Shown piece by piece: positions 28,669 through 43,743 of a stretch of DNA of 64,000 bases. Both the position numbers and the translations under genes were made by a program. The DNA is from Methylosinus sp. H3A (GTDB lineage Bacteria; Pseudomonadota; Alphaproteobacteria; Rhizobiales; Beijerinckiaceae), in contig NZ_JADNQW010000005.1 of NCBI RefSeq assembly GCF_015709455.1, positions 2,472,501-2,536,500 on the forward strand, read 5' to 3'. Each line of letters opens with the position of its first letter. Within the stretch, counting starts at the first letter, position 1. Under the pieces are notes generated by a model. That model saw nothing but the letters and a program-made list of their open reading frames with translations, was not told where the DNA came from and made no database searches.

Positions 28669-28912
28669 GCAGACGAGATTCGGCGTCTTCCAGCATTCGC
28701 CGATCACGAATCCTCGATCGGCGCCGATCTCTCGGCGTGAACCATCGGTTAACCTTTCAAACGTTTCCCGCCCTCTGTCAGGCGTGGACAGCCACGCTCT
28801 GGCCTTATTCTTCCTCTTGCGTTAGAAGGACGTTGGTAATTCGACGTCTATTGTCGTGCTAGGCTCCCGAGGCGTGATTCGCGCTTGCGGGCGTGGACAT
28901 CGAGGGGCGAGA

Positions 28913-30433
28913 ATGAGTCTCTTCCAAAACGCCGGGCGTCTCGCCCGCTGGGGCCTCGTCGGCGCCGCCTTCTCGCTCTCCGCCTGCAATGATCTCGGCT
29001 CGGGCTCCCAGCGCTCGTTGACGCCCATTCCGCCGGAGACTCTGGCGATGATGGAGCAGGCCGGCGTCACCAAGGAATCGCCGACGCTCATCCGCGCCTA
29101 TAAGAAAGAAGCCGAGTTCGAAGTCTGGAAGCAGCGGCCCGACGGCCGTTACGCCTACCTCAAGACCTTCCCCATGTGCCGCTGGTCCGGCCAGCTCGGG
29201 CCCAAGGTTCGCGAGGGCGACCGCCAAGTGCCGGAGGGGTTCTATTCCATCACCCCGGGGCAGATGAATCCGAACTCCGCTTATTATCTCTCTTTCAACG
29301 TCGGCTATCCCAACGCCTATGACCGCGCTTTCGGCCATGGCGGCGGCTCCATCATGGTGCATGGTGCCTGTTCTTCGGCGGGCTGTTTCTCGATGACGGA
29401 TCGGCAGATCGGCGAGATCTACGCCATTCTGCGCACGTCGTTCAACAATGGGCAGCGTTCGATCCAGATGCAGTCCTATCCGTTCAAAATGACGGCGGAA
29501 AATCTGGCCAAGCATCGGATGGACCCGAATATCGGCTTCTGGAAGCAGCTGAAGGAAGGCTCCGATCATTTCGAGATCGCCGGCAAGGAGCCCGCGGTCG
29601 GCGTTTGCGGGCGGCGCTATGTTTTCGACGCCGCCTCGGCCAATGGCCAGCCGCTCGACGCCTCCTTGGCCTGTCCGCCACTGAGGCGCAATGCGGAGAT
29701 AGAGGCGCAGGTCGCGCAAAAGGCTGCCGCCGACGAGGCGAAAGTGGCGCAACTGGCGGCGGCCGGCGTGCGGCCGGTGCGCGTCGTCTATCAGGACGGC
29801 GGCCAGCATCCGGATTTCTATGCCCGCGTCGCCGAGGTGAGCCGACCCGACGCGCTCATCGCGCCGATCGAAATCGCGCTCGACGAGAAGATCGGCGGCT
29901 CCAAGTCGCGTTCGCCGCTCATCGCCATGAGCGCGGCCAAGCTCGCCGCCAAGGCCAAGAAAGAGGCGGAGATCAAGATCGCCGCGCAGCCGGCCACGAC
30001 CATCAAGCCCGCAGAAGCCGCGCCGGCCGAGCCGACCAAGCTCAGCGCCTTCGCCGGCGCGACCGATTCGATCGGCGGATTGCTCGGCTTCCCCAAGGAG
30101 GCGCCGCCGGCCGCGCCCGCGGCTCAGAGCGAGGCTCCCGCGCCGGTCGCCAAAGCCGAGCCCGCCAAAGCCGAGCTCTCGAAGGCCGTATTCTCCAAGA
30201 CCGAGGTTGCCAAGGCGGGGAAGGCGGGGCCCGTAAAGGCCTCTGCGACCAAGACCGTAGCCACCGGCCAGTCTGCTGCGTCTCAGGCGCCGGCCTCGCT
30301 GCCGCCGCATCGCGTCGATCCCGCGAAAAAGCCGCAGGCGTCGCTGGGCGGCGAGCATCGCGCCAAAGTCGCCGAGGCCGCCGCAAGCGCACCGGCGTTG
30401 CGCGAAGGTTTGTCGCCCTCCGCTCGCCCCTGA
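28913..30433 (+). CDS. YafK-type L,D-transpeptidase family lipoprotein
   Basis: A 506-residue predicted lipoprotein with lipobox FSLSACN (Cys near residue 25). The catalytic domain (about 60-230) is a YafK/YkuD-like L,D-transpeptidase with FPMCRWSGQLGPKVREGDRQVPEG and the active-site block MVHGACSSAGCFSMTD, where the second Cys is the nucleophile. The last 200 residues are Ala/Lys/Pro-rich and probably a flexible wall-spanning tail. Related enzymes cut or form links between peptidoglycan and proteins. ATG 28913 follows GAGGGGCGAGA. A strong terminator follows the stop. Confidence 0.85.
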   Translation: MSLFQNAGRLARWGLVGAAFSLSACNDLGSGSQRSLTPIPPETLAMMEQAGVTKESPTLIRAYKKEAEFEVWKQRPDGRYAYLKTFPMCRWSGQLGPKVREGDRQVPEGFYSITPGQMNPNSAYYLSFNVGYPNAYDRAFGHGGGSIMVHGACSSAGCFSMTDRQIGEIYAILRTSFNNGQRSIQMQSYPFKMTAENLAKHRMDPNIGFWKQLKEGSDHFEIAGKEPAVGVCGRRYVFDAASANGQPLDASLACPPLRRNAEIEAQVAQKAAADEAKVAQLAAAGVRPVRVVYQDGGQHPDFYARVAEVSRPDALIAPIEIALDEKIGGSKSRSPLIAMSAAKLAAKAKKEAEIKIAAQPATTIKPAEAAPAEPTKLSAFAGATDSIGGLLGFPKEAPPAAPAAQSEAPAPVAKAEPAKAELSKAVFSKTEVAKAGKAGPVKASATKTVATGQSAASQAPASLPPHRVDPAKKPQASLGGEHRAKVAEAAASAPALREGLSPSARP

Positions 30434-30461
30434 CGGCCATCACTCCATATTTTGGGAATTG

Positions 30462-30494
30462 GACGATCCGCCCGGCGCGGATCGTCTCAATTTT
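30462..30494 (+). terminator. Rho-independent terminator of the L,D-transpeptidase gene
   Basis: GACGATCCGC and GCGGATCGTC form a perfect 10-base stem around CCGGC, followed by TCAATTTT. It is 29 bases after the transpeptidase stop on the same strand. Confidence 0.75.
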
Positions 30495-30611
30495 GCCCGC
30501 ATTCCTCGGAAAAAGGCGTCCTGAGCGCGACTGTTCGCCGGGCGGCCCCTTGAAAATTCCGCCGAAAATTCGATCGGGGTGCGACATAGCGACGGTCTTC
30601 CAAAAATGCGC

Positions 30612-30640
30612 TTGACACTTGTGCGCCGCAGCAATACAAC
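30612..30640 (+). promoter_or_regulatory. Sigma70-type promoter of the sRNA
   Basis: TTGACA at 30612-30617 and TACAAC at 30635-30640 are separated by 17 bases. This is a near-consensus housekeeping promoter with no protein gene downstream on this strand; it predicts a transcript start near 30647. Confidence 0.75.
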
Positions 30641-30646
30641 AGTGCG

Positions 30647-30737
30647 ACGCAGCGAGAACTTCTCTCGCTCCGTAGCCCTCCTTGGGCGTTTCCTCCCTTG
30701 ACTTGGGCCGCTGGCGTTACCGGCGGCCCTTTTTTTT
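30647..30737 (+). ncRNA. mmgR: MmgR-like trans-acting sRNA (ar8 family)
   Basis: A transcript of about 91 bases lies between a near-consensus promoter and a strong terminator. It folds as a 5' hairpin (AGCGAGA 30651-30657 with TCTCGCT 30663-30669), a small hairpin GCCC-TCCTT-GGGC, an unpaired stretch holding the ten bases TTTCCTCCCT (30690-30699), and the terminator stem. This ten-base anti-Shine-Dalgarno motif is, to my knowledge, the hallmark of the alphaproteobacterial ar8 sRNAs. Their model MmgR limits polyhydroxybutyrate build-up and phasin expression in Sinorhizobium. The gene is tail-to-tail with cobB, and its last 21 bases are antisense to the cobB 3' end. The family name rests on motif and architecture only. 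Confidence 0.7.
30705..30737 (+). terminator. Rho-independent terminator of the sRNA, inside the cobB 3' end
   Basis: GGGCCGCTGG and CCGGCGGCCC form a 10-base stem (one G-U pair) with loop CGTTA, followed by eight T. On the other strand the T-run supplies the three lysine codons at the C-terminus of CobB. Confidence 0.88.
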
Positions 30738-32042
30738 CGTCATTGCGTGGAAGAAACTTCCCGTGACCGGCCCTGCGCGCAGGCCGGCGGGCCGCTCCTC
30801 CTGCGAATAAGCGTCTGTAACCATCGCAAAGGGCAGGCCCTTCTCGCTCACTATCGTGGCGTAGTGGAATTCGTGCCCGGCGAGCTCTGCGCCCGCCGTC
30901 CCGAGCGCGCAATCGGCCGCCAGTCGCGCGCGTCTATAGCCCAAATGAAGTTTGCGCTGCGCAAAACTCGTCGCCAGATCGAGCAGGCCGGCCATCGTAT
31001 GAAGCTCGCCGGCGGCGTCGGTGAGCGTTCGGCCGAGCGTCATATAGCCGCCGCACTCGCCATGGACCGGGCGCGTCGCAGCGAAGCGCCGAAGCCCACC
31101 CAAAAAATTCGTGGCCGCCGCGAGCCGGCCGGCGTGCAGTTCCGGATAGCCGCCGGGAAGCCAGCAGGAGTCGCAATCGTCGGGCGGGGCTTCGTCGACG
31201 AGCGGCGAAAAAAATGCGATCTCGGCGCCGGCCTCGCGCCAACAGCATGCGAGATGCGGATAGAAGAACGAAAAGGCCTCGTCCCGCGCCACGGCGATGC
31301 GCCCGCCCGGCGGTCGTGGGGCGTCGAGCGAGCCCCGCGCGACGCCGGCCGGGCCTCCCGCCGCGGCGGCCAGCAGGGCGTCGAGGTCGACATGCGTCTC
31401 GATGCGCTCCGCGAGCGCGTCGAGCAGTGCTCCGAGGCCGCGCGTCTCGCCCGCCTGCACCAAGCCCAAATGCCGCTCGGGCAGAGCGATCCCGCTGTCG
31501 CGGGGCAGCGCCCCGAATACTCTGACGCCGATCGCCTCGATGGCCTCCTGCGCGAGCTTGCGATGCCGTTCGGAGCCGACGCGGTTGAGCAGGACGCCGG
31601 CGAGCTTCACCCGCGCGTCATGGGCCGCGACGCCGCGCGCTATCGCGGCGGCGCTCTGCGCTTGTCCCGAGACGTCCATCACCAGCAGCGCCGGCCAGCC
31701 GAGATGGGCCGCGATATCGGCCGAGGCGCCCGTCTGCGCCGGGGCGCCGGGAGCGCCGTCGAAAAGGCCCATCGACCCTTCCGCGACGATCACATCGGCG
31801 TCCTCGCCGGCGCGTAGCGCGAGCTGGCCCAGCAGCTCGGCCTCCATCGTCCAGGAATCGAGATTGAAGCTCGCGCGCCCGGTCGCGGCCGCGTGAAAGG
31901 CGGGATCGATATAATCCGGCCCGCATTTCACGCCGGACACGCGCAGGCCTCGCCGCGCCAGCGCGCGCATCAGCCCGAGCGCCACCGTCGTCTTGCCCGC
32001 GCCGGAGCGGATCGCGGCGACGAGGAGGCCGGGGGCGATCAG
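30717..32042 (-). CDS. cobB: Cobyrinate a,c-diamide synthase, probable CTG start
   Basis: CobB amidates side chains a and c of hydrogenobyrinic acid using glutamine and ATP. The P-loop [16 protein letters not shown] is near residue 15, followed by [14 protein letters not shown] and, in the glutaminase domain, the Cys nucleophile in [15 protein letters not shown] start at GTG 31985 would remove the P-loop. Upstream there is no ATG, GTG or TTG before an in-frame stop; CTG 32042 has AAAGGAG seven bases before it and overlaps the cobM stop as CTGA, so it is the probable start (441 residues). It is the last gene of the cob operon, and its 3' end overlaps an sRNA terminator. Confidence 0.9.
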
Positions 32043-32806
32043 CGTCCGGCTCCTTTGGGGCGAAAGCGGCGGTCATAGCCCGCGTCATAGAGCGCGCTCT
32101 CGCGGAAATCATCGGCCGCCAGCGCCTCGCCGACGAGAATGAGCGCGGTGCGCTCCATCGGCGCAACGCCCGCCAGCGGCTCTATGGTGGAGAGCGTTCC
32201 GCGCAGGATGCGCTCGTCGGGCCAGGAGGCGCGATAGACGAGCGCAATGGGGCAATCCGCGCCATAGAAGGGCGTGAGCTCCTCGACGACCCGTACGAGC
32301 GCATGAATGGAGAGATGGATCGCCATGGTCGCGCGCGCCGCGGCGAAGGCGGCGAGCGTCTCGGTCGGCGGCATGGCCGAGGCGCGGCCCGAGGTGCGCG
32401 TCAGCACGACGGATTGCGCGACTTCCGGCAGCGTCAGTTCCCGTCTCAGCGCGGCGCTGGCGGCGGAGAAGGCCGGCACGCCAGGAGTGATGGTGTAGGG
32501 AATGCCGAGCGCTTCGAGCCGCCGAGTCTGCTCGCCGACGGCGCTCCAGATGGAGAGATCGCCGGAATGGAGCCGGGCGACATCCTGCCCGGCCTCATGA
32601 GCCGCCAGCATTTCCGCGACGATGGCGTCGAGCGAGAGCGGCGCTGTGTCGACGATGCGCGCGCCCTCCGGGCAATGGGCGAGAATCTCCGGCGCGACCA
32701 GCGAGCCGGCGTAGAGGCAGATCGGGCAGCGCGCGAGAATGTCGCGGCCGCGCAACGTCAGCAGATCGGCGGCGCCTGGGCCGGCGCCGATGAAATGGAT
32801 GGTCAT
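32039..32806 (-). CDS. cobM: Precorrin-4 C11-methyltransferase
   Basis: A 255-residue SAM-dependent tetrapyrrole methylase that adds the C11 methyl group in corrin synthesis. Signatures are [22 protein letters not shown] N-terminus, [35 protein letters not shown] and the [14 protein letters not shown] loop. The start ATG overlaps the cobE stop by ATGA, and its own stop overlaps the CTG of cobB. All visible motifs of the CobM/CbiF group are intact. Confidence 0.93.
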
Positions 32807-43480: not shown

Positions 43481-43539
43481 CTGATTCTCCTCGCCGCCCC
43501 ACCGGCGGCATTCGTGGTTTCGCGTGACGGCAGGTCACA

Positions 43540-43708
43540 TGACGGCAGGTCTCCTGGCTCGCGGGTCGCCGCACGCGCCGCCTTCCCGGGCTTTCGCCCA
43601 GTGGCTTTACGGGCGCGCGCTCGCCGCTCACAGTTGCGGGGGCAGCCGCGGAATCGGGGACGAGCCCCTTACCGCATTCCCTGTTCGCCTCCTTGCGGAG
43701 GACCGTCC
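43540..43708 (-). ncRNA. Cobalamin (B12) riboswitch
   Basis: On the minus strand the leader contains the canonical blocks in order: GGGAATGCGGTAAGGG, CCCCGATTCCGCGGCTGCCC, CCGCAACTGTGAGCGG, the B12 box GCCACTG (43599-43605), CCCGGGAAGGCGG, and GAGCCAGGAGACCTGCC (43544-43560). It precedes cbtB by about 60 bases and should turn off the cbtBA-cob operon when adenosylcobalamin is high. Confidence 0.95.
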
Positions 43709-43714
43709 CGAACA

Positions 43715-43743
43715 GTCATATGACGGAGAGCAGGAGCCGTCAA
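43715..43743 (-). promoter_or_regulatory. Promoter of the cbt-cob operon
   Basis: Read on the minus strand, TTGACG (43743-43738) and TATGAC (43720-43715) are 17 bases apart, placing the start near 43708, just before the riboswitch. The -10 lies in a 10-base palindrome, GTCATATGAC, close to the start of the divergent cobO gene. Confidence 0.7.

Follow-up and report, generated by a model that had tools for sequence, protein, structure and literature searches.

A stand-alone MmgR/alphar8 small RNA gene in Methylosinus with paired PhaR/AniA-like operator sites and a cobB neighbour

Background

A genuine stand-alone small RNA (sRNA) gene of the MmgR/alphar8 family (RF00519) is present in Methylosinus sp. 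H3A, at 30646-30737 (+) of the window, the whole 64,000-nucleotide stretch of DNA analysed here. The predicted transcript is about 90 nt long, and its start, at 30646-30649, was placed from the position of the -10 element and by analogy with the coordinates in Sinorhizobium meliloti. Both the family and its link to polyhydroxybutyrate (PHB) were already known; this study adds the pairing of PhaR-like operators and the altered position in the genome.

Type II methanotrophs, e.g. Methylosinus, possess genes for PHB and are investigated with a view to methane bioconversion (PMC12403871). Most of what is known about the function of the RNA comes from S. meliloti, where MmgR is predicted to form three stem-loops (review PMC7143759) and where deletion of its core leads to 20% more PHB and to higher levels of PhaP1 and PhaP2, their mRNA levels being unaffected (review PMC8401924). 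In the same species, PhaR is reported to bind the promoters of mmgR, phaP1 and phaP2, and in the latter two a pair of PhaR-site copies flanks the -35 element (PMC12542648).

Results

Family membership, fold and terminator

The covariance-model search that the original prediction had proposed as a check was run on the whole window and returned RF00519, an Rfam entry named suhB and described as Makes More Granules Regulator RNA, mmgR. The match, at 30668-30743 (+), spans the full model (1-77) and scores 68.4 bits, far over the gathering cut-off of 41 (E = 5.2e-12 over the whole window). It is also the single match in the 5.38-Mb genome of the host.

The region 30643-30738 is predicted to fold into three hairpins at -43.9 kcal/mol (z -5.15), a stability equalled by none of 200 shuffles, and this agrees with the two- to three-hairpin transcript claimed at the outset as well as with the number of stem-loops predicted for MmgR. 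A 5' hairpin at 30647-30673 (+), outside the Rfam model, is followed by a second, weak hairpin, GCCC-UCCUU-GGGC, at 30675-30687 (+). On its 3' side lies the anti-Shine-Dalgarno seed UUUCCUCCCU (30689-30698, +), single-stranded in the predicted fold, as had been claimed for the ten-base motif. The corresponding DNA 10-mer, TTTCCTCCCT, has no other exact copy on either strand of the window, and the same 10-mer is reported for the alphaR8 family (PMC12559287).

The terminator scan found an intrinsic terminator at 30705-30737 (+), composed of a 10-bp stem (30705-30729) and eight T (TTTTTTTT); two terminator-like sites were found in the region against 0.6 expected. The terminator is strong, as first described, and its overlap with cobB is also real, extending over the last 21 nt of that gene, but it does not lie wholly inside cobB, since the stem straddles the stop codon at 30717-30719.

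Distribution of the RNA

At E <= 0.001, all ten Methylosinus genomes have an RF00519 match (10 over the cut-off). So do 58 of 60 genomes sampled from the family and 131 of 150 sampled from the order, 56 and 115 of these, respectively, scoring over the cut-off. Among 14 control genomes, matches were recorded in Caulobacter, where they are expected and exceed the cut-off, and in Thermus composti, where the match is implausible and below the cut-off.

In some relatives the RNA is highly amplified, with 14 copies in genome G013, 12 in G054 and, in G045, five that share one orientation and lie within 1.5 kb of sequence (G045:C3:4132730-4134189). Some Methylosinus also carry a second, diverged alphar8-like copy (L041, L042 and L043, at 48, 46.9 and 36.3 bits, respectively, only L043 being under the cut-off), which has a different terminator stem and is devoid of the paired PhaR-like operator.

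Promoter and PhaR/AniA-like operators

A sigma70-type promoter is recognisable at 30612-30640 (+), with TTGACA (30612-30617) as the -35 element, a 17-nt spacer and TACAAC (30635-30640) as the -10 element. Ten of the twelve hexamer positions are consensus, so that its earlier description as near-consensus stands. The same 17-nt spacing is predominant in Methylosinus sporium 5 (PMC12403871). A strict promoter scan listed no promoter in 30400-31000 because it accepts only -10 hexamers that end in T.

The first PhaR/AniA-like operator (30616-30636, +) is located between the -35 and -10 elements and has the core TGCGCCGCA at 30622-30630. Its sequence, CACTTGTGCGCCGCAGCAATA, is identical at 18 of 21 positions to the S. 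meliloti mmgR PhaR/AniA operator, CAATTGTGCACCGCAGCATTA, to which purified PhaR binds efficiently in EMSA (PMC12542648, Table 3); the runner-up 21-mer on either strand of the 64 kb reaches 14/21. A second operator-like core, TGCGACGCA, lies 21 bp from the first, at 30643-30651 (+), over the predicted transcription start, and fits YGCRNYGCR, the reported palindrome core of the PhaR site (PMC12542648). Judged by sequence, PhaR would bind one or both of these promoter sites. Taken alone, the core pattern is permissive, matching 143 times in the 64-kb window, so that weight must be given to position and conservation.

Conservation was assessed on 90 promoters, i.e. 100 loci minus eight with no exact 14-base core near the match and two duplicates. 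At least one core was present in 86 of them and at least two in 61, compared with means of 15.4 and 1.6 after dinucleotide shuffling (maxima of 26 and 6 in 200 runs) and with 6/90 and 1/90, respectively, in a control stretch 220-330 bp upstream. These loci, and those of the neighbour analysis, are the best-scoring of each search, mutually related and not a random draw, and the core counts are consequently not independent events. Two cores stand 18-22 bp apart in 56 promoters, at exactly 21 bp in 39 of the 90, while five of the 61 promoters with at least two cores have no pair at 18-22 bp. In the window, a 21-bp core pair occurs at 30622 and at one other place; in the loci of relatives, 51 such pairs fall within 130 bases of the sRNA core and seven elsewhere in 1.0 Mb.

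Six Rhizobium, Neorhizobium and Agrobacterium promoters were also inspected by eye; the full first core was found in two of them and the second core, which in the window covers the start, in none. This agrees with the one single mmgR row among the PhaR sites of S. meliloti (PMC12542648, Table 3). A literature search found no description of a paired operator for mmgR. A consensus for a sigma54-type site (NtrC arm) fits at best 6 of 10 positions, which is background level.

Conservation of the 5' hairpin

The Rfam model begins beyond the 5' arm of the first hairpin, its match starting at 30668 within the 30647-30673 element. This hairpin is variable in sequence and was misplaced by the MAFFT alignment. 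Its conservation was examined by folding and arm swapping, in sets that exclude the weak copies L041-L043 and the loci without an exact core. In all 77 distinct relatives the fold of the 5' region is more stable than the average over its own 60 shuffles (mean z -2.8), with z below -1 in 76 and below -2 in 58. Native arms pair at -17.7 kcal/mol on average, compared with -10.6 when arms are exchanged between relatives; the native pairs are among the best 5% of swaps in 49 of the 77, although every hairpin was divided at its native loop, a choice biased towards native pairs. We read these values as suggesting that the 5' hairpin is preserved through pairing more than through sequence.

Genomic neighbourhood

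The convergent gene at 30717-31985 (-) is cobB (NF002204, 481.8 bits against a cut-off of 254), as the original prediction had it in describing a tail-to-tail arrangement. Among named records, its closest relatives are those of Methylosinus sp. Ce-a6 (87%) and M. sporium (86%), followed by Methylocystis (64-70%). The upstream neighbour, at 28856-30433 (+), encodes an L,D-transpeptidase-like protein (YkuD/YafK-like).

The start of cobB is probably further upstream than listed, since at approximately 31985-32075 (-) the open frame continues beyond the listed GTG, takes in a P-loop (GAGKTT) and meets no ATG, GTG or TTG before the upstream stop. This leaves a CTG as the sole likely start; it stands at an identical codon in three Methylosinus loci (the window, L044 and L086), and Methylocystis L045 and L046 have TTG or GTG near that codon. 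A cobalamin riboswitch (121.4 bits) lies upstream of cobB on the same strand, at 43527-43720 (-).

Neighbours were tallied in flanks of up to 1.5 kb for 98 of the 100 best-scoring loci in which the core could be located, two duplicate pairs being kept. FGase (N-formylglutamate amidohydrolase) is the commonest, downstream and on the opposite strand in 57 loci, a few of them about 1 kb off; in 43 of these 57 a gene which we take to be hisN-like (inositol-monophosphatase type) lies upstream on the FGase strand. The downstream place is held by cobB in 18 loci (16 without the two duplicates), namely the window, seven more of the genus, Methylosinus and Methylocystis records, a Methylocystaceae MAG, an alphaproteobacterial MAG and L027. 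The L,D-transpeptidase-like gene is upstream of the sRNA in 17 of the 98 loci, the window's own included: 16 of the 18 cobB loci and one with dnaG downstream. The remaining loci have only the hisN-like gene (2), dnaG (2) or none of the tested genes (19). In two genus members, L037 and L038, the sRNA is followed on the same strand by a gene that, judged by its protein sequence, is presumably dnaG, instead of by a convergent cobB. Seen from the cobB side, in a search restricted to the exact core, the sRNA core is 33-51 nt from the end of cobB in 9 of 80 cobB loci, at 617 and 1055 nt in two and absent in 69.

In most species an alphaR8 copy adjoins FGase (PMC12559287), an arrangement that is typical and not defining. 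The RNA does not adjoin FGase in the host, its neighbour being cobB; the only FGase match of the genome (C5:3849258-3849968) is about 1.35 Mb from the sRNA and 20 nt from a hisN-like gene, with no sRNA between the two. The RNA gene may therefore have moved, or an extra copy may have been kept and the ancestral one lost. In Methylosinus and Methylocystis, cobB has replaced FGase as the neighbour of the RNA, and the best explanation is that this is a derived location without evident function, in which the RNA gene kept its promoter.

PHB genes and candidate targets

The proposed connection with PHB storage rests on the work in S. meliloti and gains indirect support here from the near-identical PhaR/AniA operator and from the genes of the circuit, as the host genome encodes a PhaR homologue (PF07879, 108 bits), Hfq and four Phasin_2 matches. 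Before the start codon of the best-scoring phasin, two PhaR-like cores stand 31-32 bp apart in 10/10 genomes of the genus; in the host genome they enclose a TTGACT. No consistent pair of PhaR-like cores is seen for the other two phasin groups.

The unpaired stretch of the RNA was paired with gene start regions using RNAduplex, and 37 gene starts of the window served as controls. For the phasin with PhaR-like sites the duplex reaches -9.8 kcal/mol, an unremarkable value exceeded by 12 of the 37 controls (-8.8 to -9.8 across seven orthologues, its own included). The second phasin gives a suggestive -14.7, with two controls stronger (-9.9 to -17.7 across eight orthologues, its own included). Direct pairing of the sRNA with phasin mRNA is thus a possible, unproven interaction that derives from predicted duplexes.

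Exact complements of the seed occur eight times in the genome, against five for a reversed control pattern. One of the eight is the other strand of the sRNA itself, and another precedes a seemingly spurious open frame (GTG, 140 codons). A further one belongs to a TonB siderophore-receptor operon, where it precedes by 5 bases the ATG of the third gene, which encodes a 94-aa protein (L137:1214-1495, -) annotated as hypothetical in a Methylosinus relative. The predicted duplex at this site, -19.7 kcal/mol, is stronger than all 37 controls (best -17.9). In Methylosinus sp. C49, a plasmid carries an operon 95% identical to this one, where the site is AGGGAAGAAA, with one mismatch and -13.1 kcal/mol; at the Methylocystis iwaonis locus, the seed site is absent at both genes tested, the receptor gene and the PepSY gene. 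Since SisA represses TonB receptors in Caulobacter, the site is regarded as a lead and not as a result.

Discussion

The gene shares with S. meliloti MmgR the covariance-model match, three predicted stem-loops, the 10-nt anti-Shine-Dalgarno seed and the terminator, together with a PhaR/AniA operator between the -35 and -10 elements, which is recognised here by its sequence likeness. It differs in its length (77 nt in S. meliloti against about 90 nt predicted here), in the second operator-like core over the start and in its place, the mmgR locus being beside FGase. In SisA-D of Caulobacter crescentus, a weak hairpin likewise precedes the same 10-nt seed, and a terminator is present (PMC12559287); SisA is an anti-Shine-Dalgarno repressor working with Hfq. 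Their promoters share no motif, and sisA, unlike the gene described here, adjoins FGase (PMC12559287).

As a whole, the explanation that we consider probable is that of a trans-acting MmgR/alphar8 RNA under the control of PhaR, which caps PHB granules via Hfq and Shine-Dalgarno pairing. PhaR would bind one or both operators and block the transcription of mmgR; when PHB granules form, they would draw PhaR away, and the RNA would be made together with phasin. With Hfq, the RNA would pair through UUUCCUCCCU with Shine-Dalgarno regions and lower the translation of its targets. Such an arrangement would constitute an incoherent feed-forward loop, in which PhaR represses both a phasin and a repressor of phasin, so that granule formation would be capped. 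With less assurance, we lean towards a broader evolutionary reading in which, in the methanotrophs and much of the order, mmgR would be under a two-operator PhaR switch. Its two palindromes would be spaced by about 21 bp, equivalent to two helical turns, the first within the promoter spacer and the second over the start site, and the right half of the latter would also serve as the base of the 5' hairpin of the RNA. In Methylosinus and Methylocystis, this cassette would have left the ancestral FGase-hisN place for the cobB side, retaining PHB-responsive control.

It is rather unlikely, yet worth serious consideration, that the main job of the RNA is instead SisA-like, i.e. the repression of outer-membrane uptake through TonB-dependent receptors, with PHB control as a secondary effect. 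The role of SisA in Caulobacter and the seed complement in the TonB-receptor operon, with a duplex that outperforms every control, point in this direction, but the site is imperfect in Methylosinus sp. C49 and missing from both Methylocystis iwaonis genes. Moreover, the eight complements are near background, because the reversed control occurs five times, and another of them stands before a spurious-looking frame.

Far less credible is a locus that mainly controls cobB, through a converging transcript or a terminator acting in cis on the cobB mRNA. The overlap of the terminator with the end of cobB in the window would suit this idea, but the overlap is not kept, since the core is 49-51 nt beyond the end of cobB in Methylocystis against 33-34 nt in two Methylosinus loci, and the neighbour itself gives way to dnaG in two genus members and to FGase in most of the loci surveyed. 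Cis regulation of cobB was rejected because neither the overlap nor the neighbour is conserved. Hardly any probability, slightly less still, is left for a silent or decayed copy of the family, as promoter, operators, hairpins and terminator look intact, the match is the sole one in its own genome, and window 30608-30739 is identical over 132/132 bases to M. sporium locus L033. By its coordinates, this locus belongs to DSM 17706, which we take to be strain 5; given the identity, public M. sporium 5 reads would test the gene directly. A silent copy would be in keeping with the transcript map of that strain: of its six ncRNA families, the main text names four, the cobalamin and glycine riboswitches, EcpR1 and alphar45, and it mentions neither suhB nor this RNA (PMC12403871). 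A literature search found no paper on this RNA in Methylosinus.

Conclusions

A predicted PHB-sensing sRNA in type II methanotrophs would offer a direct means of influencing storage. With the paired operators, the control of mmgR, so far described in loose terms, becomes a promoter switch that can be tested, and the altered neighbour dissociates what the RNA does from where it lies.
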